NCBI GenBank assembly: GCA_000517005.1
Contig: KI911965.1
Span: forward strand, 261,027 to 325,026
Length of the DNA: 64,000 nt
DNA from: Microvirga lupini
GTDB lineage: Bacteria > Pseudomonadota > Alphaproteobacteria > Rhizobiales > Beijerinckiaceae
Reading direction: 5' to 3'
Positions 7,833 through 23,792 of this stretch are shown piece by piece (positions within the stretch are counted from its first letter, which is position 1; each line of letters begins with the position of its first letter). The notes below the pieces were generated by a model that was not told where the DNA came from, did not search any database, and worked only from the letters and a program-made list of their open reading frames with translations. The position numbers and the translations under genes were made by a program.

Positions 7833-8951
7833 TCATGACAGAACCTCTGCACTCTGCAGGCGGGATGACGAAGAAGTCAGACATGTGAGGCCCTTCTCCT
7901 CCTGCAGCCAACCCGCCAGGGCGGCCACACCCTTGAGCCAGGAGATCGGCTGCTTCAGTCCGAGCTCCTGCGTCGCGAGGCGCGTATCGGAAACATAATA
8001 GCGCTGGTCGCCAGCCCGCCAATCGGCATAGATCGTCTCGACCGGACGGCCAATGATATCTTCGATATGGCTGACGAGTTGACGCAGGCTGATGGCATTC
8101 GCTGGTCCACCACCGAGATTGAAGGCTCGCCCCTGAACGGTCTCGATGTGATTCCACGCAGAAGCGTAGGCGGAGACGGCATCAGAAATGTCGAGCACGT
8201 CGCGAACCTGGCAGCCATCGCCATAAATGGTAATGGGCTCGCCCTGAAGAGCGCGGATCAGGAAATGGGCAACCCACCCCTGATCTTCGGTCCCCATCTG
8301 CCGCTGCCCATAGATGCAGCTCATGCGCATGACGCAGGTCGGAATTCCGAAGGAACGGGCATAGTCGAGCACATATTGATCGGCCGCTCCCTTCGAGCAG
8401 CCATAGGGCGTATGGAAATCGAGAGGGCGATTCTCGCCGATCCCTGCATTCCTGATGGCAGAATCACGAGGTTTGTAGGCATCATTTGTTTTTTCCAACT
8501 CGATATCCGCCAGATCCCCGTAAACCTTGTTCGTAGAGGCAAAGATCAGCGGCACCCGCTCGCCGCGCCGTCTGAGCGCATCGAGCACATTCAAGGTGCC
8601 GCGGATATTGATTTCAAAGTCTTCACGTGGGTCGACGAGACTGGTCGTCACCGCAACCTGAGCCGCCATGTGAAACACAGCCTGTGCATCACGGACGGCA
8701 TCGGCGACGGCGGTCTCATCGCGGATGTCGCCGATCACGGCAGAAATCTTGCTCGGATGTCTTTTTTTGAGCCATTCGAGGTTGTGGTCGACACCAGGAC
8801 GAGCCAAGACGTCATAGATCAGAACATCGTGACCCTCGCTTGCAAAACGGTTGGCCAGATTGGAGCCAATAAAGCCGGCGCCACCTGTCACCAGAACATG
8901 ACGGTGACGGAGGACGGCTGGCGAAGCAGCCGATGTGTCTGATGATTTCAT
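7833..8951 (-). CDS. NAD-dependent epimerase, CDP-paratose/tyvelose 2-epimerase-like
   Basis: 372-aa extended SDR enzyme. NAD-binding GGAGFIG is at residues 23-29. The stretches ARPGVDHNLEWLKKRHP (about 45-61), HMAAQVAVTTSLVDPREDF (about 95-113) and STNKVYGDL (about 140) are typical of CDP-tyvelose/paratose 2-epimerase-like proteins, and the catalytic YxxxK is in TPYGCSKGAADQYV. Start at ATG 8951 is chosen over the open frame to 9026 because it overlaps the upstream stop as ATGA. True substrate could be another nucleotide sugar, as this subfamily occurs in many clusters that do not make tyvelose. Confidence 0.83.
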   Translation of the reverse strand: MKSSDTSAASPAVLRHRHVLVTGGAGFIGSNLANRFASEGHDVLIYDVLARPGVDHNLEWLKKRHPSKISAVIGDIRDETAVADAVRDAQAVFHMAAQVAVTTSLVDPREDFEINIRGTLNVLDALRRRGERVPLIFASTNKVYGDLADIELEKTNDAYKPRDSAIRNAGIGENRPLDFHTPYGCSKGAADQYVLDYARSFGIPTCVMRMSCIYGQRQMGTEDQGWVAHFLIRALQGEPITIYGDGCQVRDVLDISDAVSAYASAWNHIETVQGRAFNLGGGPANAISLRQLVSHIEDIIGRPVETIYADWRAGDQRYYVSDTRLATQELGLKQPISWLKGVAALAGWLQEEKGLTCLTSSSSRLQSAEVLS

Positions 8952-10060
8952 GCCACCAAGCCTCGCGCTTCCAGCTCCTTTCGGGCTTCGTTGACGAGAT
9001 CCTTGGCTTCCTGCTTGGCAACCCAATCGGCGAGTTCAGCCAAACCTTCCGCGAAATTCTTCCTCGGCTTGTAGCCCAGCTCCTGCTGGATCTTGCCGAT
9101 GTCGGCGATGCAATGGCGGATGTCGCCAATGCGTGCCTTTCCGGCAATTTCCGGCGTCATCGGTCGGTTCATCGCTTGCGACAGAAGCTCTGCGACTTCG
9201 GATACGGTCCGGTCCTGTCCACTGCCGACATTGTAGACGCCGCCCGGCGCCTTCTCATGGTCGAGCGCTAGAACAAAGGCCTGCGCCACATCCTCCACAT
9301 GAACGAAGTCGCGGCGCTGCTGGCCGTCCTCGAAGATCATCGGCGGCTGACCGTTGTGGAGCCGGGACGCAAAGATGGCGAGAACGCCGGTATAGGGGTT
9401 CGACAGAGCCTGCCCCGGCCCGTAAGCATTCCAGAGTCGGAGCGCCACCCCCTCCATGCCATAAGCCGGGCACAGGGTCAGCGTCAGCCGTTCTTGGACA
9501 TATTTCGAGAGCGCATAGACGGAAGCCAGCGCGGGCTTCTTCCACTCCGGCGTCGGAACGGGCACAAGGGGTCGACCTTGGTCGTCCAGCGGATCCCAGG
9601 GCTCGTCAGCGCTTATGCGAGGCTTGCGAATAACATCTTCGTAGATCCGGCCTCCTGCATCCTGATAGAGGCCTTCGCCATAGATGCTCATGGACGAGGC
9701 GACGAGCACCCGTTTCACCGGATTATCGATAAGCTGCTGGAACAGCACAGCTGTGCCATAATCGTTGACGGATACATAGCGGTCGACCGCATACATGCTC
9801 TGACCGACGCCAACCTCGGCGGCAAGGTGAATGACCTTCGTAGCACCCTTGAGTGCCCGCAGGAGCGCCGCCTCGTCACGCACGTCCCCTACAACAACCT
9901 CCACGTCCGGATCGAGTCCTTCGGTCTGCGTCCTGTCGCCGTGCACCTGCTCGATGAGACTGTCGAGCACGCGCACCTTGTGCCCGCGCTCCAAGCAGGC
10001 ACGCGCCACGTAGCGCCCGATGAAGCCTGCGCCGCCGGTAATGAGGATCGTATCCGTCAC
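8948..10060 (-). CDS. NAD-dependent nucleotide-sugar epimerase/dehydratase
   Basis: 370-aa extended SDR enzyme, first gene of the leftward operon. GGAGFIG is at residues 9-15, followed by RACLERGHKVRVLDSLIEQ, the AAEVGVGQSMY segment near 80, catalytic ASSMSIYGEG near 120 and YxxxK in SVYALSKYVQE near 175. The LDSLxxQVHGD segment resembles dTDP-L-rhamnose 4-epimerase-like proteins, so a C4 epimerisation is likely but unproved. I start at GTG 10060 because GGGAG stands seven bases before it and the NAD motif then sits at the normal distance from the N-terminus; the open frame extends to 10351 but that part has no SDR character. Confidence 0.83.
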   Translation of the reverse strand: MTDTILITGGAGFIGRYVARACLERGHKVRVLDSLIEQVHGDRTQTEGLDPDVEVVVGDVRDEAALLRALKGATKVIHLAAEVGVGQSMYAVDRYVSVNDYGTAVLFQQLIDNPVKRVLVASSMSIYGEGLYQDAGGRIYEDVIRKPRISADEPWDPLDDQGRPLVPVPTPEWKKPALASVYALSKYVQERLTLTLCPAYGMEGVALRLWNAYGPGQALSNPYTGVLAIFASRLHNGQPPMIFEDGQQRRDFVHVEDVAQAFVLALDHEKAPGGVYNVGSGQDRTVSEVAELLSQAMNRPMTPEIAGKARIGDIRHCIADIGKIQQELGYKPRKNFAEGLAELADWVAKQEAKDLVNEARKELEARGLVA

Positions 10061-10250
10061 AAAATATCTCCCGATTGGTTTCTGGTCTAAGCGCCAATAG
10101 ATCAGGCAGGAGACGAGAGCCCATTCCCAAGCTGGAAATGCGACGCAGAACATGCACATATTCCAGTCCGGGAGCAGGCTTTGCAGCAGACCTCGCCAAA
10201 CGAGGGCTGCGCCATATATCCCCTTCACAAGCTTGAGATTGCGTTCAGGA

Positions 10251-10275
10251 AACTCCGAGGGATCATCTTTGTTCC
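10251..10275 (-). promoter_or_regulatory. Weaker EcfG-type promoter candidate, leftward operon
   Basis: On the minus strand GGAAC (10275-10271), 16-base spacer, AGTT (10254-10251): one mismatch to GGAAC-N16/17-CGTT. It is about 190 bases from the GTG at 10060, a long leader, so support is limited. Confidence 0.3.
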
Positions 10276-10341
10276 TGACTTCCACAAGGTAGTTTAGGCG
10301 CTCAGCCGCGAAGACAAGAGTCACAGGCACGGAATCTGAGC

Positions 10342-10367
10342 GGAACAACAAACCTTCCTCAAGCGTT
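10342..10367 (+). promoter_or_regulatory. EcfG-type (general stress sigma) promoter for ino1 operon
   Basis: GGAAC at 10342-10346, 17-base spacer, CGTT at 10364-10367: exact match to the alphaproteobacterial general stress consensus. It is 105 bases before the ino1 start codon. Confidence 0.55.
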
Positions 10368-10472: not shown

Positions 10473-11555
10473 ATGAGTTCGAGGAAGGTCCGGGTCGGGA
10501 TCGTGGGCGTCGGCAATTGCGCCTCGTCCTTCGTACAGGGCCTCACCTATTACAAAGATGCAAAGGGCAACGAACCTGTGCCCGGGTTGATGAATGTTGA
10601 ACTCGGCGGATACCACATTAGTGATATCGAGATGTCCGCAGCCTTCGACGTGAATGCCTCGAAAGTGGGGCGCGACCTGTCCGACGCGATCTTTGCAGAG
10701 CCTAACAATACGCACCGGTTCTCGGCCGTCCCGCAGAGCGGGATCAATGTCAACCGGGGCAAGACCCTTGATGGGCTCGGCAAGTATTTGTGCGACGTGA
10801 TCGAGGAATCGCCTGATGATGAGGCGGATGTCACCACGATCCTGCGCCAATCCAAAACAGATGTCCTTGTCTCTTATCTCCCTGTTGGCTCACAGAAAGC
10901 CACCGAGTGGTATGCCGAGCGGGCGCTCGAAGCGGGCTGCGCCTTCGTGAACTGCATCCCCGTCTTCATCGCTTCGAACCCGGAATGGCGCAAGCGCTTC
11001 GAAGAGCGCGGTCTTCCCATCATCGGCGATGACATCAAGAGCCAGGTCGGCGCCACCATCGTTCACCGCGTTCTGGCCAACCTCTTCCGGGAACGCGGCG
11101 TACGGCTCGACCGCACCTATCAGCTCAACTTTGGCGGCAATACCGATTTCCAGAACATGCTGGAACGCGAGCGGCTCGAATCGAAGAAAATATCCAAGAC
11201 GCAGGCCGTCACGAGCCAGCTCGACATCTCGCTGCCCGCGAGCGACATCCATGTGGGGCCAAGCGACCACGTGCCGTGGCTCACCGATCGCAAATGGGCG
11301 TACATCCGGCTCGAAGGAACGACCTTCGGCAGGGTTCCGCTGAACATGGAAGTGAAGCTCGAAGTCTGGGACTCCCCGAATTCCGCCGGCATCGTGATCG
11401 ATGCTGTGCGCTGCGCGAAGATCGCCATGGATCGCAAGATCGGCGGTGCCCTCACCGGCCCATCCAGCTACTTCATGAAGTCGCCGCCGCAGCAATTCAC
11501 CGACAACGAAGCCCGTGATAGAACCATGCGCTTCATCAGCGGCGATGAAGATTAG
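10473..11555 (+). CDS. ino1: Inositol-3-phosphate synthase (myo-inositol-1-phosphate synthase)
   Basis: 360-aa cytosolic enzyme converting glucose 6-phosphate to 1D-myo-inositol 3-phosphate with bound NAD. The dinucleotide loop [12 protein letters not shown] is at about 9-20; the conserved [13 protein letters not shown] is near 160, [17 protein letters not shown] near 185 (active-site Asp/Lys), the [12 protein letters not shown] segment near 216, and the family tail [10 protein letters not shown] near 335. The short length matches the bacterial (actinobacterial-type) rather than the 500-aa eukaryotic enzymes. GGGAGA stands six bases before ATG. It heads the rightward operon of a glycosyltransferase cluster, so the inositol is probably the acceptor or core of a glycoconjugate and not a catabolic substrate. 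Confidence 0.93.
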
Positions 11556-11572: not shown

Positions 11573-12172
11573 ATGACCACTACGTTCTTTCTCGTGCGTC
11601 ATGCGGCCCATGATCGGGTCGGCACTGTTCTGTGCGGGCGCAAGCCGGGCGTAAACCTCGGCTCTGTTGGGAAAGCCCAAGCAGAACGCTTGGCGCAACG
11701 CTTTGCCAGCGAGAACGTGGCCTGCATTCGCACAAGCCCTCTTGAGCGCGCTCTGGAGACGGCACAGCCCATTGCATCCCGCCTCGAACAGACTCTTCAT
11801 GTTTGCGACGCTATCAACGAGATCAACTTCGGCCGCTGGTCCGGCATGAGTTTCGAAGCACTGATCCGGGATCCGCGCTGGTCATCGTGGAACAGTTCAC
11901 GCAGCACCAGCCGCCCTCCGGGAGGCGAGACAATGCTGGAGGTCCAAGGACGCATTGTCGGAGCCATGGAGCAGTTGCGCGGACTTTATGCGGAGCAGAC
12001 GGTCATTCTTGTGAGCCACAGCGATGTGATCAAGGCTGCCCTCCTCTATTACCTCGGCATGCCGATCGACGCCTATGGCCGCTTGGAGGTCGGGCCCGCC
12101 TCGATCAGCACTCTCGTTGTGGGAGACTGGGGCTCCAAGGTTCTGCGGTTGAACGAAGTGGTGGCCGCATGA
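11573..12172 (+). CDS. Histidine phosphatase (phosphoglycerate mutase superfamily)
   Basis: 199-aa phosphatase of the branch-1 histidine superfamily. Catalytic motif is LVRHAAHD (about 7-14; RHA in place of the more usual RHG), the second Arg is in RTSPLERALETAQPI near 50, the proton donor Glu in NEINFGRWSGMSFE near 85, and the second His in LVSHSDVIK near 143. Seventeen bases after ino1 and overlapping the next gene by ATGA, so co-transcribed. A fitting role is removal of the phosphate from inositol phosphate or from a phosphorylated glycoside intermediate, but that is inferred from position only; members of this superfamily also act on glucosyl-3-phosphoglycerate, cobalamin and phosphoglycerate. 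Confidence 0.85.
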   Translation: MTTTFFLVRHAAHDRVGTVLCGRKPGVNLGSVGKAQAERLAQRFASENVACIRTSPLERALETAQPIASRLEQTLHVCDAINEINFGRWSGMSFEALIRDPRWSSWNSSRSTSRPPGGETMLEVQGRIVGAMEQLRGLYAEQTVILVSHSDVIKAALLYYLGMPIDAYGRLEVGPASISTLVVGDWGSKVLRLNEVVAA

Positions 12173-13278
12173 AGATCGTCATATTCGGCCTGACCATCTC
12201 TTCATCCTGGGGCAACGGCCACGCGACCCTCTGGCGAGGTTTGTGCCGGGCACTCGCGAAGCGGGGTCATAAGGTCGTGTTCTTCGAGAAGGATGTGCCC
12301 TATTACGCCGCGACCAGGGATCTTTTCGAAATCCCTGGCGGCGATCTCATTCTCTACGAGGATTGGGTCAGCATTCGCCATCGAGCAGACGCGGAACTCA
12401 AGGACGCAGATATGGCCATGGTCACCTCCTATTGTCCGGACGGCATCGCAGCCGGCGATCTTTTATTGACGGCATTACGCGCCACCCGCGTGTTCTACGA
12501 TCTCGACACGCCGGTCACCTTTTCGCGCTTGGATGCAGGCGAGCCGATCAGCTATATCGGCCCTCGCGGACTTGGCGATTTCGACCTCGTACTGAGCTAC
12601 ACGGGAGGCCAAGCCATCAGGAGGCTGCAGACGGAGCTTGGAGCAAGACGTGTTGCTCCTCTTTACGGCCATGTGGACCCTGATGTGCACCGCCCGGTGC
12701 CCAGCATCCAGCATTACGTCTCCGATCTCTCCTACCTCGGCACCTATGCGGCGGATCGTCAGGAAGCCCTGCAGCGTCTCTTCATCGATCCTGCTGCTCA
12801 CCACTCAGACCGGCGCTTCCTGATTGGCGGAGCGCAATACCCGGAGGACTTCCCCTGGCAGCCTAACATTCATTACGTGCGGCACCTTCCTCCATCGGAG
12901 CATCCAGCCTTCTTCTCGTCGTCGCGACTTACACTCAACATCACACGGCAAGCCATGGCCGAGATGGGTTGGTGCCCATCCGGACGCCTGTTCGAAGCAG
13001 CGGCCTGCGGCACACCCATTCTCTCGGACAATTGGGAGGGCCTCGACAGCTTCTTCGAGCCAGGCAGGGAGATCCTGATTGCCGGAGACACGGAGGATAT
13101 CGTTACAGCTCTCGACCTCACCGATGCTGAGCTGAAGCGTATTGCCAAGGCGGGCCGGGAGAGGGCGCTCGAAATGCATACATCGGAGCACAGGGCAAAG
13201 GAGCTTGAGATCCTGCTCGAAGGCTCCACTTCCCTCTCGTCCTCGACCGGCGGCTCGGCCGCCATGATGGAGGCCTGA
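12169..13278 (+). CDS. CgeB-like glycosyltransferase
   Basis: 369-aa GT-B family protein, paralogue of the gene at 3351 with the same length. Shared motifs: LTISSSWGNGHATLWRG (about 8-24), EKDVPYYAATRDL near 43, FYDLDTPVTFSRL near 108, DLSYLGTYAADRQ near 184, and the donor signature CPSGRLFEAAACGTPILS near 264-281. The ATG at 12169 overlaps the phosphatase stop as ATGA; the frame is open further upstream but that part is a shadow of the phosphatase. Its position directly after ino1 and a phosphatase makes inositol or an inositol-bearing molecule a likely acceptor. Confidence 0.86.
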   Translation: MKIVIFGLTISSSWGNGHATLWRGLCRALAKRGHKVVFFEKDVPYYAATRDLFEIPGGDLILYEDWVSIRHRADAELKDADMAMVTSYCPDGIAAGDLLLTALRATRVFYDLDTPVTFSRLDAGEPISYIGPRGLGDFDLVLSYTGGQAIRRLQTELGARRVAPLYGHVDPDVHRPVPSIQHYVSDLSYLGTYAADRQEALQRLFIDPAAHHSDRRFLIGGAQYPEDFPWQPNIHYVRHLPPSEHPAFFSSSRLTLNITRQAMAEMGWCPSGRLFEAAACGTPILSDNWEGLDSFFEPGREILIAGDTEDIVTALDLTDAELKRIAKAGRERALEMHTSEHRAKELEILLEGSTSLSSSTGGSAAMMEA

Positions 13279-13280
13279 CC

Positions 13281-14093
13281 ATGTGGGGGATCATACCCGC
13301 GGCCGGGATCGGCAGCCGCATCCAGCCGCTGGCTTTCTCGAAAGAGCTTCTGCCCGTAGGAAGCCGCCTCGACAACGGCGTCGAGCGCCCCTGCGCCGTC
13401 AGTGAATACCTCGTCGAGCGCATGATCCATGGCGGAGCGGATAAGATCTGCTTCGTCATTTCTCCCGGCAAATCCGATATCATGGAGTATTACGGCGCAA
13501 GCTACGGCAGCGCTTCCATTGCCTATGTGGTGCAACCGCAGCCCAGCGGATTATGCGATGCGATCTTCCAGGCGGCTCCGCTCATTCCGTCAAGTGAGAG
13601 CGTGATTGTCGGCCTACCGGATACGGTCTGGTTTCCTGAAAAGGCGCTGGCGGAACTACCGGACGGATTTCTCTCGTTCCTGCTCTTCCCAGTCGACAAT
13701 CCGGAGGTCTTCGACGCCGTTATCATGGACGAGACGATGCATGTCAGGGAGATCCAGGTGAAACGGGCGGACGCCGCCTCACGCTGGATCTGGGGCGCCT
13801 TCAAGATGCCGGGTCAGGTTCTGGAGGAATTGCGCCAGCTTTGGATTTCGCGCGATCGCCAGGATGAGTATTTCGGCACGCTCGTGAACGCCTATCTGGC
13901 CGAGGGAGGCCAGGCCATCGGCGTGAAGGCGGGCGAATCCTATGTCGACGTCGGAACCCTGCACGGCTATCGCGCTGCGATCGGATTGCTAAGCGAGGCC
14001 GCTCAGCACGACACCATGACCGGAGCCCGTGTGGCTCTCGGCTGGCCTGCGGGGCGCCTTCCGCGTGGGCTTCATGACTTGAACAGGGAGTAG
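13281..14093 (+). CDS. Sugar-phosphate nucleotidyltransferase
   Basis: 270-aa enzyme of the glucose-1-phosphate thymidylyl/uridylyltransferase fold. The nucleotide-binding signature is at the very N-terminus: IIPAAGIGSRIQPLAFSKELLPV (spaced GxGxR with catalytic Lys about 21). Further support: VVQPQPSGLCDAIFQAAPL near 82 (base-binding), GLPDTVWFP near 110 (metal-binding Asp), and YVDVGTLHGYRAAI near 225, the usual end of the catalytic domain. Two bases after the glycosyltransferase stop. It should activate a hexose 1-phosphate to an NDP-sugar for the cluster's transferases; which nucleotide or sugar is not visible. Confidence 0.85.
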   Translation: MWGIIPAAGIGSRIQPLAFSKELLPVGSRLDNGVERPCAVSEYLVERMIHGGADKICFVISPGKSDIMEYYGASYGSASIAYVVQPQPSGLCDAIFQAAPLIPSSESVIVGLPDTVWFPEKALAELPDGFLSFLLFPVDNPEVFDAVIMDETMHVREIQVKRADAASRWIWGAFKMPGQVLEELRQLWISRDRQDEYFGTLVNAYLAEGGQAIGVKAGESYVDVGTLHGYRAAIGLLSEAAQHDTMTGARVALGWPAGRLPRGLHDLNRE

Positions 14094-14101
14094 CTGTCAC
14101 C

Positions 14102-14875
14102 ATGAATGCCATCGATCCCACGCCGCCTGACGAAATCCGCCGGAAGGCTGAAGCGCTCGGGCCATGGTTTCACAATATCGAGCTGAAGGATGGCGTCTGG
14201 ACCGCGCCCAACCACTTCCTCGGCAATTATCCCGCCATCAAGTGGCAGCAATTTTCCGACGCGATTCCGCAGGATCTCACCGGGAAAAGCGTGCTCGACA
14301 TCGGCTGCAACGGCGGCTTCTATTCCATGGAGATGAAGAAGCGCGGCGCCGAACGCGTGCTGGGCATCGATTTCGACGAGACCTATCTCGCTCAGGCCCG
14401 TTTTGCTGCGCAGACAATGGACTACGACATCGAGTTTAGCAAGCTTTCCGTCTATGATTTAGGTCGGCTCGACGAGCGCTTCGACGTGGTGCTCTTCATG
14501 GGCGTGCTCTACCACCTGCGCCATCCATTGCTGGCGCTCGACCTCATTCACGAGCACGTCGCCAAAGACCTTCTCGTGTTCCAGTCGATGCAGCGCGGAT
14601 CGGCTGATGTCATGCCTGTCGAGGAGAACTATACCTTCTGGCAGACGGATCACTTCGACGATCCGCGCTATCCGAAGATGCACTTCATCGAGCATCGCTA
14701 TGCCGATGACCCCACGAATTGGTGGGCCCCGAATGCAGCCTGCGTTGAAGCGATGCTCCGCAGTGCCGGATTCGAGATCGTCCAACATCCGGAAACCGAA
14801 GTTTACATATGCCGCCGTGTCGATGCCCCGCACGGTGCGGGTGCCGTCTATCCGGCCCAAGGGAGAACCGCATGA
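14102..14875 (+). CDS. Class I SAM-dependent methyltransferase (TIGR04290-like)
   Basis: 257-aa methyltransferase. The SAM-binding motif I is SVLDIGCNGGFYSMEM (about 61-76), the acidic residue ending strand 2 is in VLGIDFDETYL near 88, and motif IV/V is VLFMGVLYHLRHPLLALDL near 129. N-terminus AEALGPWFHNIEL and the WWAPNAACVEAMLRSAGFE segment near 203 resemble a family annotated as TIGR04290 methyltransferases, which from memory occurs in conserved sugar clusters like this one. Eight bases after the nucleotidyltransferase; overlaps the glycosidase by ATGA. Likely O-methylates a sugar or inositol of the product; acceptor unknown. Confidence 0.85.
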   Translation: MNAIDPTPPDEIRRKAEALGPWFHNIELKDGVWTAPNHFLGNYPAIKWQQFSDAIPQDLTGKSVLDIGCNGGFYSMEMKKRGAERVLGIDFDETYLAQARFAAQTMDYDIEFSKLSVYDLGRLDERFDVVLFMGVLYHLRHPLLALDLIHEHVAKDLLVFQSMQRGSADVMPVEENYTFWQTDHFDDPRYPKMHFIEHRYADDPTNWWAPNAACVEAMLRSAGFEIVQHPETEVYICRRVDAPHGAGAVYPAQGRTA

Positions 14876-15801
14876 TCGAAGCCGCAATGATCTGGAACGA
14901 GCCCAACAACAAGTCTCACTGGGACCCGGAGATCGATCCGGATTGGAAGCTCTTCTCCGAGATGGCAATTGTCGCGGGTCAGGCGATCAAAGCCGAGAAT
15001 TCCAACCTCCCGCGTGCCCTCGGAGGCATCTCGCCCATTGATCCAGGCTTCATCAAGAAACTGGAAGGCCACGGCACCCTCGATCACATCGATATTGTTG
15101 CCGTGCACGGCTTCCCGCTCGACTGGAACCTGTGGCAGATCCACGAATGGCCTGCGAAGATCGACGAGATCCGCGCCGTGACGGACAAGCCCATCTGGGT
15201 GAGCGAAGTCGGCATCTCGACATTCGGGGCCGAGGAGGTTCAGGTTTGGGGGTTGAACCGGACTGCCGAACTTCTGATCGGCAAGGTGCCAAAGATCCAT
15301 TGGTACAGCCTCTATGATCTCCCTCGTGCCTGGGAGGCCACGACGCGCCATAGGGAGGCCGAAGGTTCGTCCTATTACCGGCATTTCTACATGGGTCTCC
15401 TGCGCGAAGACGGCACGCCGAAGCCTGCTCTCGAGGAATTCGCGAAATACACGCCCCAGATGGGCCTATGCCAGTGGTTCCACTATGAGGACCATCGCCT
15501 CGACGATGCCGTGGCATGGATGAAGCGGCTCGGCGTGAAGGACCTGCGCACTGGCCTGTCCTGGGCCGACAGCTTCCGCCCGAATGCGCTGGACTGGTTC
15601 GATCGTCAGATTGAGGCGCTTGCGGATTTCGACGTGACCGTGACCTTCTGCTTCACGCCGGAGCATCGTGGGATTGCGCCACACCACACCAGTGCACCGC
15701 AGGTGAAGGAGGAATTCGCGGAATTCTGCGCCAGCATGATCCGCCGCTATGCGCCTTCCAGCCGGCCTTCCCAAGCGAGCAAGGTTCTGGAAGTTCTCTG
15801 A
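14872..15801 (+). CDS. Clan GH-A glycosidase (beta-xylosidase-like), apparently circularly permuted
   Basis: 309-aa TIM-barrel glycosidase without signal peptide, so cytosolic. The acid/base motif IWNEPN (Glu10) stands at the very start and the nucleophile motif WVSEVGIST (Glu112) follows, whereas in GH39-like enzymes about 130-150 residues (strands 1-3) precede NEP. Here those strands appear after the end of the barrel: GLCQWFHYEDHRLDDAVAW, GVKDLRTGLSWADSF, FDVTVTFCF and EFCASMIRRYA, at residues 198-293. The order is therefore strands 4-8 then 1-3. Start at 14872 overlaps the methyltransferase stop as ATGA, and no barrel sequence lies upstream in any frame. It may trim or transglycosylate the cluster's glycoconjugate. 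Confidence 0.8.
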   Translation: MIEAAMIWNEPNNKSHWDPEIDPDWKLFSEMAIVAGQAIKAENSNLPRALGGISPIDPGFIKKLEGHGTLDHIDIVAVHGFPLDWNLWQIHEWPAKIDEIRAVTDKPIWVSEVGISTFGAEEVQVWGLNRTAELLIGKVPKIHWYSLYDLPRAWEATTRHREAEGSSYYRHFYMGLLREDGTPKPALEEFAKYTPQMGLCQWFHYEDHRLDDAVAWMKRLGVKDLRTGLSWADSFRPNALDWFDRQIEALADFDVTVTFCFTPEHRGIAPHHTSAPQVKEEFAEFCASMIRRYAPSSRPSQASKVLEVL

Positions 15802-15883: not shown

Positions 15884-16909
15884 CTATCGTCCGTAGATCC
15901 GATCGAGAACCCTCGCGACGTCCACCAGCTGCTCCGCTGCCGGATCGAAGCGTTCACCCGCCGCCAAGCGTGAAGCCCAATCTGCGGCCGCACGGCCGCC
16001 CCACTCATCCGGAGGCATAGTCAAGATCTCTCGCGACGTGCCCCGATAACGCTCCGCCGTGAAGTCATAGAACGATCCGTTCACATTGCGCAGGGATAGG
16101 CCACCTTTCGTCCCATAGAACGTGGCGGAGATCATTGCATCGCACCCGGCCTGAAGCCGCCAGGAACAGGCGAGCTGCACCACGGCGCCCGTCTCCAGCT
16201 CCATGGTCGCGACGGCGTAATCCTCCACCTGTGATGCAGTATCCTTCAGCGGGGCACCGCCTGCGAAGAGTTTCCCCGTCACACTCGCGACACCAGGATT
16301 GCTCATGGTCCATAAAGCGAGATCGACCAGATGAACACCAAGGTCCATCACGCAGCCGCCGCCGGAGAGTGCCGGATCGTAGAACCACGGCTTGTCCGGG
16401 CCATAAGCATTGTGGAACACGAGATCCACGGCATAGATGTGACCCACCTCACCTGAATCGATGACCTCGCGGATACGGCGCATCCCTTCCGTGAACCGGT
16501 AGGAGAGATCGACGCACAACAGTCGATTCGACTTGCGCGCGGTATCGACCACTGCCTGCACTTCCGGCGCCGTCCGCCCGAGCGGCTTCTGGCAGAACAC
16601 GGCGACGCCGCGCTCCAGGGTCCGGATCGACTGTTCCGCATGCATGGCGCTCGGGGTCGCAATCACGACGCCATCGACGCCGAGGTCGAGGATATCGTCG
16701 AGGGTCACAACGAGCTGCGCCTCAGGTGCCAGCTTGCCGGCCTCGGCTGCTATCTCAGGCGACGGATCGGCGATGGCGGTAACATCGACGGCTCCAGTGC
16801 CAAGGATCGCCTGCATGCGGTGCCGGCCGATCCAGCCGACGCCGAGGAAGCCTAGGCGCGGGCGCGCAAGGGAGGCTTCGGGAGACGCCTTTAGAATCCG
16901 CCGCGCCAT
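15884..16909 (-). CDS. Gfo/Idh/MocA family oxidoreductase
   Basis: 341-aa NAD(P)-dependent sugar/inositol dehydrogenase-type protein. N-terminal Rossmann fold with GFLGVGWIGRHR (about 20-31), VTAIADPSPE near 47, the catalytic-lysine motif FCQKPLGRTAPEV near 107 (EKP usual, QKP here), and C-terminal domain with DLGVHLVDLALW near 200 (conserved Asp/His) . Family members oxidise inositol, hexoses or nucleotide sugars. Its start overlaps the dehydrogenase stop by one base (TGATG), so the two form a pair that converges on the inositol cluster; an inositol or sugar dehydrogenase in the same pathway is likely but unproved. Confidence 0.85.
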   Translation of the reverse strand: MARRILKASPEASLARPRLGFLGVGWIGRHRMQAILGTGAVDVTAIADPSPEIAAEAGKLAPEAQLVVTLDDILDLGVDGVVIATPSAMHAEQSIRTLERGVAVFCQKPLGRTAPEVQAVVDTARKSNRLLCVDLSYRFTEGMRRIREVIDSGEVGHIYAVDLVFHNAYGPDKPWFYDPALSGGGCVMDLGVHLVDLALWTMSNPGVASVTGKLFAGGAPLKDTASQVEDYAVATMELETGAVVQLACSWRLQAGCDAMISATFYGTKGGLSLRNVNGSFYDFTAERYRGTSREILTMPPDEWGGRAAADWASRLAAGERFDPAAEQLVDVARVLDRIYGR

Positions 16910-17946
16910 CAGAACATCACCAGAGCTTTGAGGAAACCGATCGGCCGGTCGCGCGTGGCATTGAGCGCCTCGTCGAGTTTCTCCAAAGGATAGCGGTGCG
17001 TATAGAGGAAGCTTGGATCGAGCCGTCCCGATGCAATAGCCTCCGCCGCATCGCGCAGTCCCTGCACATAGATCTTCGAATCACGCTCGTGCGCGTTGAT
17101 GACATCGATGCCACGCCAGTTCCAGAGCCACATATTGACCTGCCGCGGGCCGTCCTGATGGTAACCGGCAACGATGAGCTTGCCGCGCTCACGGGTCAGC
17201 TCGCTCGCGAGGTCAAGGGGCCATTGCTTGCCGACCGCTTCGATCACCCGATCGCAGAATGTGCCGCCGGTCAGCTCCTTGACCCGTTCGATGATCGCAT
17301 AGTGATCCTCCATCGGGATCGTCTCGGCTGCACCCATGCGGCGCGCGAGATCGAGCGAGAACGGCCGTCGTGAGATCGCGATCACGCGGGCACCGGCATC
17401 GGAGGCAAGCTTGGTGAGAATGGCGCCGAGAAAGCCGATGCCGATAATGGCAATCGTTTTCCTGGCTTCAATCTCGCTGCGGCGAAAGATATTCATCGCG
17501 CAGCCGAGCGGCTCGCCGGGAAAGGGCTGGCCCGCCAGAACGCTGGGCAGGCGCACCACGGCATCGGCCTCGGCCAGATCGTATTCGGCATAGGACTTGT
17601 AGGAAAGCGCCGCGACCCGATCGCCGATCGACAGGCCCTCGACACCCTCGCCGATAGCGTCCACGAAGCCCCACGCCTCGTGCCCGAGCGCGCCGGGCTC
17701 GGTGGGATACTGCATCCATTCTGGCCCCGCCCACGGCGTCAGGTTCGAGGCGCATACGCCGCAACCTTCCAAGCGTAGCCGTACCTGCCCCGGGCCTGGT
17801 TCCGGACGTGCAACCTCGCTGATCTGGATCTGCCCCGGCCCTGTGACGATGGCGGCGCGCATGGTTCGCGGAACGTCGGCCTGTCCGTCGCTCCTTTCGC
17901 TCATAGAAGCGGAAACGTCGCTGCTCGCACCAATCTCGTTCAGCAA
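16909..17946 (-). CDS. Zinc-type alcohol/sugar dehydrogenase (MDR family)
   Basis: 345-aa medium-chain dehydrogenase. N-terminal GroES-like domain with GCGVCASNLTPWAGP (zinc-ligand Cys) and GALGHEAWGFVDAIGEG (catalytic His/Glu); Rossmann motif AIIGIGFLGAILTKLA near 165, SRRPFSLDLARRMGA near 195. The structural-zinc cysteine lobe is absent, as in threonine/sorbitol-like short forms. I place the start at TTG 17946 since GGTGGAGGG is six bases before it; the open frame begins at TTG 17976 and an internal ATG at 17904 is also possible. Coupled to the Gfo/Idh gene by one-base overlap, suggesting sequential redox steps on a polyol or sugar. Confidence 0.82.
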   Translation of the reverse strand: MLNEIGASSDVSASMSERSDGQADVPRTMRAAIVTGPGQIQISEVARPEPGPGQVRLRLEGCGVCASNLTPWAGPEWMQYPTEPGALGHEAWGFVDAIGEGVEGLSIGDRVAALSYKSYAEYDLAEADAVVRLPSVLAGQPFPGEPLGCAMNIFRRSEIEARKTIAIIGIGFLGAILTKLASDAGARVIAISRRPFSLDLARRMGAAETIPMEDHYAIIERVKELTGGTFCDRVIEAVGKQWPLDLASELTRERGKLIVAGYHQDGPRQVNMWLWNWRGIDVINAHERDSKIYVQGLRDAAEAIASGRLDPSFLYTHRYPLEKLDEALNATRDRPIGFLKALVMF

Positions 17947-18051
17947 GTCTGTCCCTCCACCATACCGCCCGAGCAACTAGGGACGGGAGAAGAGACTTCA
18001 AGGCTTGGCTGTTCATGCCACGATGCTGCCCACCTCGGGGCCACTGCCGGA

Positions 18052-18970: not shown

Positions 18971-20515
18971 TTAAAAAAGCGTTTCGTGCGGGTGAGCCAC
19001 ATGCTCCTGGAAGATCGCCCCGGTGGTCGGCTCCACCTCTTTCAGCACGACCGCATAGCCCCAGAGATTGGCCACCATCTGAAGGACCCGCTGGGCGTCA
19101 TCCTTGTGCAGCAGGGTCCGGTTGAGGACGTGATGGTGCAAGATCAGGCGCCGATCTCCGGCGAGGTCCACATCGACCACCTGGATGTCGGGATCGCTCC
19201 AGCCGACATCGTACTGGCGCGACAGCGAACGCCGCAGGCGCCGATAGCCCCGCTCGTCGTGGATCGCCTCGATCATGAGCTCCGGCTGGTCCGGATCGTC
19301 GACGAGATGGAACATGCGCCACTGCCGGATCAGATGAGGGCTCAAGAATTGCGAGATGAAGCTCTCGTCGCGGTAGTTCGCCCACACGTCGCGCAGCACA
19401 GCCATGGCATCGCCGCTGCCGGCGATGTCGGGGAACCATTCGTGGTCTTCCGCCGCCGGCTTCGTGCAGATGCGCTCGATGTCCTGCATCATGCCGAACC
19501 CGAGCGCATAAGGATTGATGCCGCCGTAATGCGGATCGTCGAATTCGGGCTGCCGGGTCACATTGGTGTGCGATTGCAGGAATTCGAGGAAGGCGCCGTC
19601 GCTGATCCGCCCCGTCTCGTGCAGGCGGGTCATGATGCGGTAATGGCAATAGGTTGCGCAGCCTTCGTTCATCACCTTGGTCTGGCGCTGCGGATAGAAA
19701 TACTGCGCGATGTGGCGCACGATGCGCAGGACCTCGCGCTGCCAGAGCTGCAGGCGGGGCGCCGATTTTTCGAGGAAGTACAGGAGGTTTTCCTGCGGCA
19801 GTTCGAGAAGGGCGCGGCGGCGCTCCTCGCTCAATTGCGGCTTGGCAGCGGCCCCCTTTGTCGGCACCGTGCGCCACAGATCATTGAAGGTCTGCTCCTG
19901 ATGAAGCTGACGCTCCCGCTCCCGGCGCTCCTCGGAGCGCAGGTCCGGCCGCTTCTTGCGCGGATAGCGGTGAACACCGTGGGACATCAGGGCATGGGCA
20001 GCATCGAGCACGCGCTCCACGGCTGCGTGCCCGTAACGCTCCTCGCAGCGCGTGATGTAGCCCTTGGCGAACTCGAGATAATCCAGGATCCCGTCCGCGT
20101 CTGTCCATTCCTTAAACAGGTAGTTGTTCTTGAAGAAATGGTTATGGCCGAAGGCGGCATGGGCGATGACGAGGGTCTGCATCGTCGCCGAGTTCTCCTC
20201 CATGATGTAGGAGATGCACGGATTCGAGTTGATGACGATCTCGTAAGCCAAGCCCATAAGCCCCTGGCGATAGCTCGATTCATGCAGGGCGAAGCGCTTG
20301 CCGAAGGACCAGTGCTTGTAGAACAGGGGCATGCCGATGGAAGCATAGGCATCGAGCATCTGCTCGGCGGTGATCACCTCGATCTGGTTCGGATAGACGT
20401 CGAGCCCCAACTCGCCGACGCCGATGGCCTCGACGGCATCATGGATGCGCTGGATCGTGCCGAAATCCCAATCAGCCCCATGGAAGAGCAGGTTGTCGTG
20501 CCCGGTCCCGCTCAT
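18971..20515 (-). CDS. SpoVR family protein (YcgB-like)
   Basis: 514-aa soluble protein of the SpoVR/YcgB family, named for a cortex-formation mutant in Bacillus but widespread in non-sporulating proteobacteria. Recognisable blocks are GLDVYPNQIEVITAEQML near 38-55, FGHNHFFKNNYLFKEW near 122, HGVHRYPRK near 174, NEGCATYCHYRIM near 287 and GGINPYALGFGMMQDIERI near 325. Biochemical function is unknown. Its ATG overlaps the yeaH-like stop as ATGA, the usual order prkA-yeaH-spoVR being conserved in many proteobacteria, where it is linked with stationary phase and nitrogen starvation. Confidence 0.92.
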   Translation of the reverse strand: MSGTGHDNLLFHGADWDFGTIQRIHDAVEAIGVGELGLDVYPNQIEVITAEQMLDAYASIGMPLFYKHWSFGKRFALHESSYRQGLMGLAYEIVINSNPCISYIMEENSATMQTLVIAHAAFGHNHFFKNNYLFKEWTDADGILDYLEFAKGYITRCEERYGHAAVERVLDAAHALMSHGVHRYPRKKRPDLRSEERRERERQLHQEQTFNDLWRTVPTKGAAAKPQLSEERRRALLELPQENLLYFLEKSAPRLQLWQREVLRIVRHIAQYFYPQRQTKVMNEGCATYCHYRIMTRLHETGRISDGAFLEFLQSHTNVTRQPEFDDPHYGGINPYALGFGMMQDIERICTKPAAEDHEWFPDIAGSGDAMAVLRDVWANYRDESFISQFLSPHLIRQWRMFHLVDDPDQPELMIEAIHDERGYRRLRRSLSRQYDVGWSDPDIQVVDVDLAGDRRLILHHHVLNRTLLHKDDAQRVLQMVANLWGYAVVLKEVEPTTGAIFQEHVAHPHETLF

Positions 20516-21816
20516 GGCACCCTGGCTCCGGCTTCCGCATCACGCCGGCGGAAGAGCTCGCGGAAGACGGGGTAGATCTCGCGCCGGTGATTCACCTTGC
20601 GCATGGCGAGGTTGGCCCCTTCCTCCTGAAGCGTCTCATAGGTCTGCCACAGGGAGGTCTTGTGATTGATAAATCCGGTCTGCATCCGGTCGCTGTCGCT
20701 GCCGACTTCGAGATAGGCATAATACTGGCAGACCGGCAGGATCACGTCGCGCAGCAGGGTGGCGCTGGTGGTGCCATCGTTCGGCGAATTGTCGCCGTCC
20801 GAAGCCTGGGCCGCGTAGATGTTCCACGCATCCGGCGAATAGCGCTCCTCCACGATCCGCTGCATCTCCCGCAAGGCCGAGGACACCACCGTTCCGCCGG
20901 TCTCGGGACTGTTGAAGAAGGTCTCCTCGTCCACCTCCTTGGCCTCATGGGTATGCCGGATGAAGACGATCTCCACGTGCTTGTAGCGCCGAGTCAGGAA
21001 GATGTAGAGCAGCATGTAGAAGCGCTTGGCCAGATCCTTCATGTGCTCGGTCATGGAACCGGACACATCCATGAGGCAGAACATCACCGCCTGCGCGACC
21101 GGTTTCGAGACCGGCTCGAAGCGGCGGTAACGCAGATCGATAGGATCGATGTAGGGAAAACGCTTGGTGCGCAGCTGAAGCTGTTCGAGTTCCTGCCGCA
21201 GCGCGGTTAGGCGCTCTGACGGCCCCTCCTGCTCCTCGAGACAGTCGATTTCCTCCCTGAGGCGGAGCAGATCCTCGGATTTGGGTCGCCGCATGGCGAT
21301 GCGGCGGGACAGGGCATTGCGCATGGAACGCAGCAGGGCGAGGTTCACGGGCGAACCGGTGACCGTATATCCGGCCCGCCGTAGCCCTTGGGTCTCTACC
21401 GTCGCGACGCGCCGTTTGGCGAGATCGGGCAGTTCCAGGTCGTCGAGGAAAAGATCGAGAAACTCGTCGCGGGTCAGGACGAAGCGGAAATCGTCCTCGC
21501 CCTCCCCGCTGTCCCCGCCGGCCGCGCTGCTGCCACCGCCGGGCGGCCGGTCGATGGTGTCGCCTTCCACGAAGCGCTTGTTGCCGGGAAGGATGTGATC
21601 GTGCACTCCACCCTCGCCGGACCGGCGGAAGCTGGGCTCGCGAACACCATCGGCCGGGATCGAGACCTCCCCTCCCCGTTCGAGATCGGTGATGTCCCGA
21701 TCGCCTGCGGTCTGGCGTACGGCCCGCTGAATCTGCGCCTTGGCTCGGCGAAGAAAACGTTGGCGGTTAGCCAGACTCTTGCCCCCTGGGTTGAGGCGCC
21801 GGTCGATGATGTACAT
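20512..21816 (-). CDS. YeaH/YhbH family protein (DUF444)
   Basis: 434-aa protein with a VWA-like C-terminal half. Start MYIIDRRLNPGGKSLANRQ is the usual family N-terminus, so I set it at ATG 21816 and leave out the 20 upstream codons. The Asp/Ser-rich metal site reads MDVSGSMTEHMKDLAKRFY near 257 (MIDAS-like DxSxS), followed by FIRHTHEAKEVDEETFF near 295 and AAQASDGDNSPNDG near 348. The family works with PrkA and SpoVR in one pathway of unknown output. Stop of this gene overlaps spoVR by four bases. Confidence 0.92.
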   Translation of the reverse strand: MYIIDRRLNPGGKSLANRQRFLRRAKAQIQRAVRQTAGDRDITDLERGGEVSIPADGVREPSFRRSGEGGVHDHILPGNKRFVEGDTIDRPPGGGSSAAGGDSGEGEDDFRFVLTRDEFLDLFLDDLELPDLAKRRVATVETQGLRRAGYTVTGSPVNLALLRSMRNALSRRIAMRRPKSEDLLRLREEIDCLEEQEGPSERLTALRQELEQLQLRTKRFPYIDPIDLRYRRFEPVSKPVAQAVMFCLMDVSGSMTEHMKDLAKRFYMLLYIFLTRRYKHVEIVFIRHTHEAKEVDEETFFNSPETGGTVVSSALREMQRIVEERYSPDAWNIYAAQASDGDNSPNDGTTSATLLRDVILPVCQYYAYLEVGSDSDRMQTGFINHKTSLWQTYETLQEEGANLAMRKVNHRREIYPVFRELFRRRDAEAGARVP

Positions 21817-21845
21817 AGGAACGCCTGATCTGCCTCCGTCCTCTG

Positions 21846-23792
21846 TCAGCCCGCCTGCTTCACACGCATGTACCACTCCACCAGACGCCGCACCTGGCGC
21901 TCGGTGTAGCCACGCTCCATCATCCGCAGCACGAACTCGCCGTGCTTCTTCTCGGTCTCGCTGTCCTTCTTGGAGCCGAAGCTGATCACGGGCAGCAATT
22001 CCTCGACCTGCGAGAACATCCGGCGCTCGATCACGTCGCGGATCTTCTCATAACTCGTCCAGGACGGGTTACGGCCATGATTGCCGGCCCGGGCGCGGAG
22101 CGAGAACTTCACCACCTCGTTGCGGAAATCCTTCGGATTGGCGATGCCGGCCGGCTTCTCGATCTTGGTCAACTCCTGGTTCAGGAGCTCCCGGTTCAGG
22201 AGCTGGCCGGTATCGGGATCCTTGAAGTCCTGATCCTCGATCCAGGCATCGGCATAGGCCACGTAGCGGTCGAACAGGTTCTGGCCGTAATCGTGGTAGG
22301 ATTCGAGATAGGCCTTTTGGATTTCATGGCCGATGAAATCGGCGTAACGCGGTGCCAGCTCGGCCTTGATGAATTCCAGATACCGCCGCTCCACGTCCTG
22401 GGGCAGTTGCTCGCGCCGCAGGGACTGTTCGAGCACGTACATGAGATGGACAGGATCGGCCGCGACCTCGATGGTGTCGTGGTTGAAGGTGGCGGAGAGG
22501 ACCTTGAAGGCGAAGCGGGTCGAGATTCCGTCCATGCCCTCGTCGACGCCGGCGGAGTCCTTGTACTCCTGCAGGCTGCGAGCACGGGGATCGACCTCAC
22601 GCAGGCTCTCGCCGTCATAGACGCGCATCTTCGAGTAGAAATTCGAGTTCTCGTGCGCCCGCAGACGCGACAGCACCGAGAACCGGGCGAGCATTTCCAG
22701 CGTGGCCGGAGCGCAGGGTGCGCCTGCCAGTTCCGAGCCGCGGATCAGCTTCTCATAAATCTTCTGCTCTTCGGTAACCCGCAGGCAATAAGGCACCTTG
22801 ATCACGTAGATGCGATCAATGAAGGCTTCGTTGTTCTTGTTGGCCCGGAAAGTCTGCCATTCCGCCTCGTTGGAATGCGCCAGGATGATGCCGCTGAACG
22901 GGATCGATCCGATATTCTCCGTACCGACATAATTCCCCTCCTGCGTCGCCGTGAGCAGGGGATGAAGCATCTTGATCGGTGCCTTGAACATCTCGACGAA
23001 TTCGAGAATACCCTGGTTGGCACGATTCAGACCGCCGGAATAGCTGTAAGCATCGGGGTCCGCCTGGGACAGAGTCTCGAGCTTGCGGATATCGACCTTG
23101 CCGACGAGGGACGAAATATCCTGATTGTTCTCGTCGCCCGGCTCCGTCTTGGCGACAGCGATCTGCCTCAGGCGGGACGGGTTGATCTTGACCACCCGGA
23201 ACTTGGAGATGTCTCCCTTGAATTCGTCGAGGCGCTTGATGGCCCAGGGGCTGAGCAGATTGGTCAGCCGACGCTGCGGAATGCCATAACGCTCTTCGAG
23301 CATCGGCCCCATCTGTTCCGGGTCGAAGAGGCCGAGCGGACTCTCGAAGACCGGGCTGATCTCGTCGCCCGCCTTCAGAACATAGATGGGGTTGACCTCC
23401 ATTAGCGCTTTTAGGCGCTCGGCGAGGGAGGATTTGCCGCCGCCGACGGGGCCGAGCAGGTAGAGAATCTGCTTGCGCTCTTCCAGGCCTTGGGCGGCGT
23501 GGCGGAAGAAGCTCACGATCATCTCGATCGTCTCTTCCATGCCGTAGAATTCGGAAAAGGCCGGGTAAACCCGGATCGTGCGGTTCATGAAGATGCGGCC
23601 GAGACGTGCGTCCTTCGACGTATCGACAAGCTGGGGCTCGCCGATGGCTGCCAGGATGCGCTCGGGAGCGCTCGCATACATCATGGGATCGTTACGGCAC
23701 CCTTCCAGGTAGTCCGTCAGAGACATCTCCGCCTCGCGGCGGGTTTCATAGGTCTTCAAGAAACTCGAGAACAGGTCGTCGGAATGAAGCAT
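21846..23792 (-). CDS. prkA: PrkA family serine protein kinase
   Basis: 648-aa cytosolic AAA-like kinase (E. coli YeaG type). P-loop is LLGPVGGGKSSLAERL near 108-123; the AAA domain continues through YVGTENIGSIPFSGIILAHSNEAEW near 285-310, and the C-terminal PrkA kinase domain contains the ENSNFYSKMRVYDGE segment near 385 and a long helical tail. Two starts are possible: TTG 23810, with only two bases between it and GAGAGGGA, and ATG 23792, which I prefer. First gene of prkA-yeaH-spoVR, 29 bases before yeaH. In E. coli the operon acts in nitrogen-starvation and stationary phase; here the upstream 580 bases contain no obvious EcfG motif. Confidence 0.93.
   Translation of the reverse strand: MLHSDDLFSSFLKTYETRREAEMSLTDYLEGCRNDPMMYASAPERILAAIGEPQLVDTSKDARLGRIFMNRTIRVYPAFSEFYGMEETIEMIVSFFRHAAQGLEERKQILYLLGPVGGGKSSLAERLKALMEVNPIYVLKAGDEISPVFESPLGLFDPEQMGPMLEERYGIPQRRLTNLLSPWAIKRLDEFKGDISKFRVVKINPSRLRQIAVAKTEPGDENNQDISSLVGKVDIRKLETLSQADPDAYSYSGGLNRANQGILEFVEMFKAPIKMLHPLLTATQEGNYVGTENIGSIPFSGIILAHSNEAEWQTFRANKNNEAFIDRIYVIKVPYCLRVTEEQKIYEKLIRGSELAGAPCAPATLEMLARFSVLSRLRAHENSNFYSKMRVYDGESLREVDPRARSLQEYKDSAGVDEGMDGISTRFAFKVLSATFNHDTIEVAADPVHLMYVLEQSLRREQLPQDVERRYLEFIKAELAPRYADFIGHEIQKAYLESYHDYGQNLFDRYVAYADAWIEDQDFKDPDTGQLLNRELLNQELTKIEKPAGIANPKDFRNEVVKFSLRARAGNHGRNPSWTSYEKIRDVIERRMFSQVEELLPVISFGSKKDSETEKKHGEFVLRMMERGYTERQVRRLVEWYMRVKQAG

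Follow-up and report, generated by a model that had tools for sequence, protein, structure and literature searches.

A circularly permuted clan GH-A-like barrel, predicted to be a glycosidase, in a conserved gene cluster of Microvirga lupini

The gene, its parts and its start

A stretch of 64,000 nucleotides from Microvirga lupini (assembly GCA_000517005.1, contig KI911965.1, positions 261,027–325,026 of the forward strand), hereafter the window, was analysed by computation. The gene studied here lies at 14872–15801 (+) of the window and encodes 309 amino acids and a stop codon. Its product is a clan GH-A-like (beta/alpha)8 barrel, predicted to be a glycosidase, in which the strands that normally open the chain stand at the C-terminus. 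The initial annotation, made from the sequence alone, had proposed this order, with strands 4–8 before strands 1–3. According to the translation, the motif IWNEPN is located at residues 7–12 and the motif SEVGIST at residues 111–117, as had been described. The segments assigned to the first three strands, QWFHYEDHRLDD (201–212), KDLRTGLSWAD (223–233), VTVTFCF (255–261) and FCASMIRRYA (285–294), are indeed found in the C-terminal part of the chain.

The gene can be divided into two halves and a joint, all on the + strand. Residues 3–187 (14878–15432) contain beta4 to alpha8 and correspond to residues 117–299 of the standard-order domain found in relatives, and residues 194–297 (15451–15762) contain beta1 to alpha3 and correspond to standard-order residues 11–116. 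The new joint, residues 188–193 (15433–15450), connects the old C-terminus to the old N-terminus. The codons of Asn9–Glu10, the predicted acid/base at the end of beta4, are at 14896–14901, and the codon of Glu112, the predicted nucleophile on beta7, is at 15205–15207. A variable C-terminal tail following RRYA occupies 15763–15798.

The start codon at 14872 and the stop codon of the methyltransferase gene before it share the sequence ATGA, an overlap that the initial annotation had also read. An alternative start is listed at 14809, 21 codons upstream. As a check, 120 related copies corresponding to 95 distinct proteins were compared. At the position equivalent to 14872, the codon is ATG in 84 of the distinct proteins, GTG in 10 and ACC in one. 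In 65 of the 95, the stop–start overlap is exactly that of the window, and the start lies within −7 to +4 of the methyltransferase stop in 82; for the others, the fetched locus has no methyltransferase (10) or the methyltransferase is further off (3). In the copy of genome G207 (loci L107, L115 and L130), an in-frame stop is located immediately 5' of the ATG, and therefore an N-terminal extension is impossible there. From the conserved start codon, the methyltransferase overlap and this stop, 14872 is very probably the real start, and very probably no barrel strands are hidden upstream. At some loci, a standard-order match apparently extended 5' of the ATG; the DNA there is the end of the methyltransferase gene, and the match was judged spurious. 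In the window, the overlapping frame upstream of the ATG bears no likeness by eye to the standard-order domain.

Order of the two halves

Profile–profile alignment was performed with hhalign between 43 permuted and six standard-order sequences. In the native order, the alignment falls into two swapped pieces: standard residues 117–299 are aligned with permuted residues 3–187 (E 1.2e-30), and standard residues 11–116 are aligned with permuted residues 194–297 (E 9.7e-13). Matches of this strength are more than chance, as had been argued. The two pieces meet on the standard side at one point, with neither gap nor overlap. When the permuted alignment is rotated, a single alignment of 278 columns is obtained with a score of 291 and an E value of 3.2e-43, whereas the native pieces score 210 and 92. 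The identity between the permuted protein and the standard-order GH domain is about 30%. The swapped two-piece match to this domain is observed in all 95 permuted loci then collected, some of which are repeats. No gap or insertion is present at residues 185–205 in any of the 107 aligned rows, so that the joint has a constant length.

The comparison with solved structures gave a similar result. Against the sequences of the Protein Data Bank (PDB), rotation improves the match to PslG from E 0.022 to E 0.00029, and the coverage changes from residues 3–194 to the whole barrel. When the standard-order profile is used, PslG is aligned in normal order (E 0.0012). With the permuted profile, residues 3–190 correspond to PslG 132–328 (E 5.4e-6), the best sequence match to any solved structure. 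We are nearly certain that the chain is circularly permuted.

Structure models

The full-length model was calculated with AlphaFold2 from 43 sequences, resulting in a predicted local distance difference test (pLDDT) score of 82.9 and a predicted template modelling (pTM) score of 0.84. It is an eight-stranded (beta/alpha)8 barrel, as in clan GH-A, whereas the usual chain order from beta1 to beta8 is not present. The strands are at residues 2–8, 48–53, 75–80, 108–113, 142–145, 198–200, 224–230 and 254–260, and correspond by homology to beta4, 5, 6, 7, 8, 1, 2 and 3, respectively. The first strand leads into NEP of the WNEPN motif. Structure prediction had been proposed as a check of the permuted order, and the result supports it.

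A half model consisting of residues 1–195 (pTM 0.78) was compared with known structures by VIA, and 50 matches were listed. Most of them are enzymes that we take to belong to clan GH-A: GH53 (Z 11.7, from chain residue 127 or 156), GH10 (Z 11.0), and also GH128, GH51, GH2 and GH86. None of the 50 listed alignments begins before chain residue 47, and all thus lie past the first strands. PslG is matched with Z 11.0 over 177 residues (3.4 Å, 21% identity, chain residues 156–356), and the GH39 xylosidase 1px8 with Z 10.1 over 174 aligned residues (3.2 Å, chain residues 151–356). Both are within 2 Z units of the GH53, GH10, GH51 and GH128 matches.

Catalytic residues and family

Conservation was examined in 107 aligned permuted rows, which represent 104 distinct sequences including that of the window (one repeat and two trimmed copies were set aside). 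Twelve residues are invariant in all 107 rows: Trp8, Asn9, Glu10, Pro11, Asn12, His79, Glu112, Trp144, Tyr145, Trp202, Arg226 and Trp231. Glu10 and Glu112 are aligned with the glutamates of PslG WNEPN and WSTEWG, respectively. Asn9–Glu10 follows the strand 2–8, and Glu112 is located inside the strand 108–113, which is beta7 by homology; this is the arrangement of the acid/base and the nucleophile in clan GH-A. The standard-order relatives carry the same WNEPNN and W-x-T/S-E-x-G motifs, and both are kept in nine fusions other than that of genome G408. The permuted protein is likely to be catalytically active, and the alignment with the PslG glutamates suggests a retaining mechanism.

The initial annotation had called the barrel GH39-type. 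This name needs correction: PslG is only the nearest relative by sequence, no curated family threshold is reached, and neither Pfam nor NCBIfam places the protein in GH39. Clan GH-A-like is thus the safe label. The families GH13 and GH70 are absent among the Pfam matches of the protein, although no direct comparison with GH13 or GH70 was made.

Distribution and standard-order relatives

The permutation is old and fixed. In the contigs of GTDB genomes, 494 stretches encode a relative, and thus it is not peculiar to the genome of the window. The best 80 of the 494 are all near full length and in permuted order, with the match spanning query residues 1 to at least 290 (2–302 in one case). Among 61 genomes related to that of the window, 23 match; 21 of these are permuted (own genome included), and two (G018 and G030) match in two pieces of opposite order. 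In the class, 14 of 385 genomes match, eight permuted (own included) and six standard (G075, G093, G155, G219, G222 and G320). Two of the eight permuted genomes contain more: G408 has an additional degenerate standard copy, and G265 has a standard fragment at a contig edge. With the standard-domain profile, 22 of 398 genomes of the phylum match: 12 permuted (own included), two standard, and eight outside the class (E 1.1e-17 to 3.4e-4), which are taken as generic relatives. In G046, one of the 21 permuted genomes related to that of the window (contig C9, 21865–22767), a permuted copy of 71% identity has one in-frame TAG, reflecting a pseudogene, a sequencing error or readthrough.

Plasmids also carry the gene. 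At E 1e-3, 147 plasmid records match the window protein; in 103 of these, including pSymB of S. meliloti 1021, the match covers 80% or more of the protein in one place. Where the match is named (60 of the 147 records were listed), it is annotated as beta-xylosidase or hypothetical protein, and such names conceal the rearrangement. The standard domain is matched by 51 plasmid records at E 1e-10, of which 44 are from Rhizobium.

The standard-order relatives have about 640–695 residues, with the GH domain followed by an SDR domain (nine loci: L096, L097 and L148–L154). Genome G681 provides a tenth case, with the SDR domain in frame behind the GH domain. Together with G018, G030, G075, G093, G155, G219, G222 and G320, G681 is a source of extant unpermuted homologues. 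Comparison with homologues, the second check proposed in the initial annotation, also favours its reading: the homologues examined for strand order share the permuted order, and the standard-order relatives are separate genes, not an adjacent N-terminal half. The two forms occur in one genome in at least two cases, G408 (standard copy degenerate) and Rhizobium sp. CB3090. In the former, the open frame 5835–7784 of L154 is a GH–SDR fusion that has lost both catalytic motifs, and the genome keeps an intact permuted gene. In the latter, the permuted gene (1378567) and the standard-order gene (1362960) are about 15 kb apart on plasmid pCB3090_1 (L195, 1355000–1386000). A distant standard-order GH relative of 25% identity was also seen on a contig catalogued as viral (L193, 5001–5939).

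Selection and history

The ratio of nonsynonymous to synonymous substitution rates (dN/dS) of the window gene against 12 Microvirga sequences is 0.043 for residues 1–296 (mean dN 0.042, mean dS 0.97), indicating purifying selection. The two halves show 0.045 and 0.039, and the joint shows 0.082, with dS finite in seven of the 12 comparisons. Separate searches with each half in 80 loci, reaching at most 6 kb to either side of the gene, revealed no trace of a second copy. The only extra half-barrel matches were two on the opposite strand, with E values of 0.5 and 0.7. Thus, the earlier statement that no barrel sequence lies upstream holds in these loci.

A tree was calculated from 55 rows with the permuted sequences rotated: 43 hand-picked permuted sequences, nine standard fusions, the degenerate G408 copy and two outgroup rows. 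Ten repeat loci (L174, L175 and L184–L191) were left out beforehand. Seven rows with the spurious extension 5' of the ATG were then removed, together with L162 (a repeat), L192 (a trimmed repeat) and L177 and L179 (generic relatives). The 43 permuted rows form one clade with support 94/73, recovered in 93% of 200 bootstrap trees. The nine fusions and the degenerate G408 copy are grouped opposite this clade with support 96/97. A single change of order is enough on this tree. Since both outgroup rows are standard, the rooting, through very long branches, makes the permuted order the derived state. The most likely route would be duplication, in-frame fusion and trimming, by analogy with the route to permutations described in excerpts of two papers (PMC2213659; PMC4919382). 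No duplication or fusion intermediate was seen among the loci examined.

Gene neighbourhood and promoter motif

Upstream of the permuted gene, five genes are located on the + strand: an inositol-3-phosphate synthase (10473–11555; PF01658, and TIGR03450-like with 552 bits, under the cut-off of 638), a histidine phosphatase superfamily gene (11573–12172; PF00300), a glycosyltransferase (12169–13278; PF13524), a nucleotidyltransferase (13281–14093; PF00483) and the TIGR04290 family methyltransferase whose stop overlaps the GH start (14102–14875; 382.7 bits, cut-off 300). Downstream, on the − strand, are a Gfo/Idh/MocA oxidoreductase (15884–16909) and a zinc-dependent dehydrogenase (16909–17976). 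A divergent operon on the − strand contains the SDR sugar-nucleotide enzyme SDR1 (8948–10060, start by homology) and SDR2 (7833–8948, start uncertain), which is 51% identical to the SDR domain of the standard-order GH fusion; a glycosyltransferase is also divergent with SDR1 and SDR2. The SDR1 frame as listed (8948–10351, −) is too long at its 5' side, and the homology start near 10060 leaves a divergent intergenic region of 412 bases. Ten neighbouring genes were scanned, and no match to a transporter family was found.

The neighbourhood was surveyed in 80 loci that extend at most 6 kb in either direction (some shortened by contig ends), counting homologues of at least 35% identity. The most frequent neighbours are the methyltransferase (72 loci), the inositol-3-phosphate synthase (70) and the phosphatase (61), followed by SDR1 (49), the glycosyltransferase (48) and the nucleotidyltransferase (43); each oxidoreductase occurs in 31 loci, SDR2 in 27 and the GT4 enzyme in 18. 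In the nine standard-order loci (12–13.5 kb as fetched, G408 included), SDR1 is present in all nine and the TIGR04290 methyltransferase in three, and a homologue of the inositol-3-phosphate synthase is found in none. The TIGR04290 gene is on the same contig as the GH–SDR fusion, at a distance of 7–9 kb, in G155, G093 and G075. The fusion cluster of R. etli p42b contains a TIGR04290 gene and a gene annotated as UDP-glucuronic acid decarboxylase, which is a faint hint of xylose. TIGR04290 exceeds its cut-off in seven of 142 genomes of the class; two of these, G131 (contig C169, 5754–6428) and G197 (contig C45, 3180–3851), showed no GH of this family when the class was searched.

Two motifs are located in the divergent intergenic region, GGAAC-N18-GTT at 10342–10367 (+) upstream of the inositol-3-phosphate synthase, and an N17 form at 10251–10275 (−) for the SDR operon. 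GGAAC-N15..18-GTT is presumably the form of EcfG/RpoE2 general-stress promoters. In the window, it occurs 11 times against 4.5 expected, and one of 100 shuffles reached 11. Of 78 loci, 44 have the motif within 350 bp 5' of the inositol-3-phosphate synthase, whereas the expectation from first-order Markov sequences is 1.1 (at most 5); the 44 loci are related to one another and are not 44 independent events. As controls in the same clusters, mostly coding DNA, the phosphatase (2 of 69), the methyltransferase (0 of 78), the GH gene (0 of 89) and the zinc dehydrogenase (1 of 19) were examined. Upstream of the divergent SDR1, the motif is present in 24 of 53. Its position differs by group: Microvirga has it at about −130, Mesorhizobium at −66 to −72 and S. 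meliloti at −64. Near the glycan operon, genes for SpoVR, DUF444 and PrkA (Pfam) are located in a row at 18971–23810 (−); such genes are often tied to stress survival. In the open-access literature searched, no paper was found on TIGR04290, on TIGR04295, on the presumed S. meliloti locus tags SMb20241–SMb20246 or on RpoE2 with beta-xylosidase.

Proposed mechanism and alternative explanations

We propose that an ancestral chain running from beta1 to beta8 was cut between alpha3 and beta4, and that a short loop from alpha8 to beta1 connected the former ends, which would give the strand order beta4-5-6-7-8-1-2-3. The closed barrel would be unchanged, and therefore the acid/base Glu10 on beta4 and the nucleophile Glu112 on beta7 should still face each other and work as in a retaining glycosidase or transglycosidase with the usual two-step mechanism. 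No signal peptide is apparent by eye, because the chain opens directly with a core strand. The product would be made in the cytosol, with its translation coupled to that of the methyltransferase. The operon would be stress-regulated and serve a methylated, probably inositol-containing glycoconjugate, and the enzyme may trim or transfer a sugar, acting on the glycoside of its own operon. Taken as a whole, a permuted GH-A-like retaining glycosidase or transglycosidase acting in the cytosol, within a stress-regulated glycoconjugate operon, is quite likely and is the best explanation of the data.

Several results weigh against this explanation. No Pfam cut-off is reached in native or rotated order (Glyco_hydro_cc gives 16.2 bits native and 17.9 rotated, cut-off 21), and the native protein has no match in NCBIfam. 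With the permuted profile, the C-terminal half shows weak matches to PDB sequences: residues 206–295 match the N-terminal part of a beta-glucosidase with E 0.13, and residues 191–299 match a putative lipase with E 0.2. In the full-length model, pLDDT is below 50 at residues 11–15, beside Glu10, and at 155–170 (also at 84–86 and 299–309). In sequential alignment, this model fits many unrelated barrels in its own register, the best being a GH20 enzyme (Z 14.5); an endo-beta-1,4-glucanase, which we take to be GH5, is superposed with Z 12.4 and 8% identity. Because the barrel is pseudo-symmetric, it fits in a shifted register, and the full-length search says little about the family. Similarly, the absence of a GH39 entry among the listed full-length matches excludes nothing. 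A Foldseek search with the half model gave many tRNA-guanine transglycosylases (E from 1.6e-3), which are taken as generic barrel similarity. The SH-aLRT support of the permuted clade is 73 (not starred), and the outgroup is attached through very long branches, so that the tree program issued a warning about long branches coming together. The promoter motif is missing upstream of the inositol-3-phosphate synthase in 34 of the 78 loci.

Two alternatives concern the permutation itself. The gene could be a truncated tandem copy, that is, the remains of two adjacent standard barrels (the C-terminal part of copy 1 and the N-terminal part of copy 2), no longer folding or working. Since duplication, fusion and truncation are described as a route to permutation in the excerpts of PMC2213659 and PMC4919382, such an intermediate probably once existed. 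However, the 80 loci contain no second-copy remnant, dN/dS is 0.04, neither the order nor the joint length varies among 104 distinct sequences, 94 of 95 distinct proteins share the start position, and the eight strands of the model are the complement of exactly one barrel; a decayed tandem copy is thus extremely improbable. We give an equally small chance to an ordinary barrel whose order seems shifted only through TIM-barrel symmetry. The sequential full-length structural alignments to unrelated barrels (Z 12–14.5) would agree with this, but each half is assigned by sequence homology to the standard-order domain, the rotated profile alignment outscores the native one, the catalytic motifs fit the rotated register, and the first half alone picks the later halves of GH-A barrels.

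The other two alternatives accept the permuted fold and concern the function. A sugar-binding or scaffold subunit of biosynthetic enzymes, with the permuted fold and no activity, could be imagined, because the standard-order relatives carry an SDR enzyme as a fusion partner and the standard copy of G408 has lost both catalytic motifs, so that non-catalytic use may exist in the broader family. The catalytic and motif residues are, however, invariant in 107 of 107 permuted rows, and we regard a non-enzyme as unlikely. A cytosolic beta-xylosidase degrading imported oligosaccharides is slightly less unlikely; several plasmid records are named beta-xylosidase, and the structural matches include a GH39 beta-xylosidase. 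On the other hand, the neighbours are glycosyltransferases, sugar-nucleotide SDR enzymes, a nucleotidyltransferase, an inositol-phosphate synthase and a methyltransferase, and none of the scanned neighbours matches a transporter family. Making or trimming a glycoconjugate is favoured over the degradation of food because of this synthetic gene context, the fusion to a sugar-nucleotide enzyme in the sister group and the lack of a transporter, and on balance we lean towards action in a biosynthetic pathway.

A wider history can be suggested only as a speculation, and we consider it doubtful. A single old event may have separated the GH domain from the epimerase that remains its fusion partner in the standard-order sister, with a cut at the beta3/beta4 boundary independent of that in GH70, and the freed intracellular enzyme may have entered a sugar-transferring step in an undescribed pathway for a methylated inositol glycoconjugate induced by general stress. 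If so, glycosidase barrels would be cut preferentially at the beta3/beta4 boundary.

Both the permuted and the unpermuted form exist within a single bacterial class, which allows a direct comparison of their fold, stability and activity. The family is a natural test case of an enzyme chain cut and rejoined without loss of the active site, and a natural model for engineering by permutation. The family also draws attention to a glycan operon that is common in rhizobia, Azospirillum, Roseomonas and relatives and is probably regulated by stress.

Comparison with known systems

The closest known proteins are the alphaproteobacterial GH–SDR fusions, annotated as NAD-dependent epimerase/dehydratase (for example RHE_RS22270 of Rhizobium etli CFN 42 p42b). 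Their GH domain is homologous across the whole barrel, and SDR and glycosyltransferase genes adjoin them as they adjoin the permuted gene. In contrast to the permuted protein, which has no SDR domain, they have the normal strand order and a C-terminal SDR domain. PslG of Pseudomonas aeruginosa, presumably a GH39 enzyme with a role in the Psl exopolysaccharide system, shares both aligned catalytic glutamates and differs in its standard order and its 416-residue chain. The GH39 beta-xylosidases (1px8) resemble the half barrel in structure, whereas they have the standard order and accessory domains, and the window protein is below every family threshold. For these xylosidases, the excerpt of PMC6887791 describes Glu/Glu retaining chemistry.

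Other candidate precedents were examined. In the excerpt on PgaB (PMC13366581), the permuted barrel is the CE4 esterase domain and not the GH153 domain. In the excerpt on OsAPSE, words for permutation stand in the reference list only, and in that of a beta-xylosidase review, the single 'permut' belongs to a GH3 reference. In the open-access collection searched, which includes few subscription papers, none of the matches listed describes a permuted barrel of clan GH-A.

Among glycosidase barrels, the best-known natural circular permutation is that of the GH70 family of clan GH-H. According to the excerpt of PMC4919382, GH70 glucansucrases are naturally permuted relative to GH13, with beta4–8 before beta1–3 and the N-terminus at alpha3. 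In GH13 itself, MalS is described as having the permuted domain order C-A-B-A-C (excerpt of PMC10223318). The window protein has the same kind of strand order as GH70, whereas the GH70 enzymes belong to another clan, act on alpha-glucans and are multi-domain. As far as the excerpt describes GH70, its chain begins one helix earlier, at alpha3, whereas the window protein keeps alpha3 at the C-terminal side and starts on beta4. The permuted GH-A barrel is thus a variant of a known phenomenon, with GH70 as the parallel, and it is robust as a structural and evolutionary fact.

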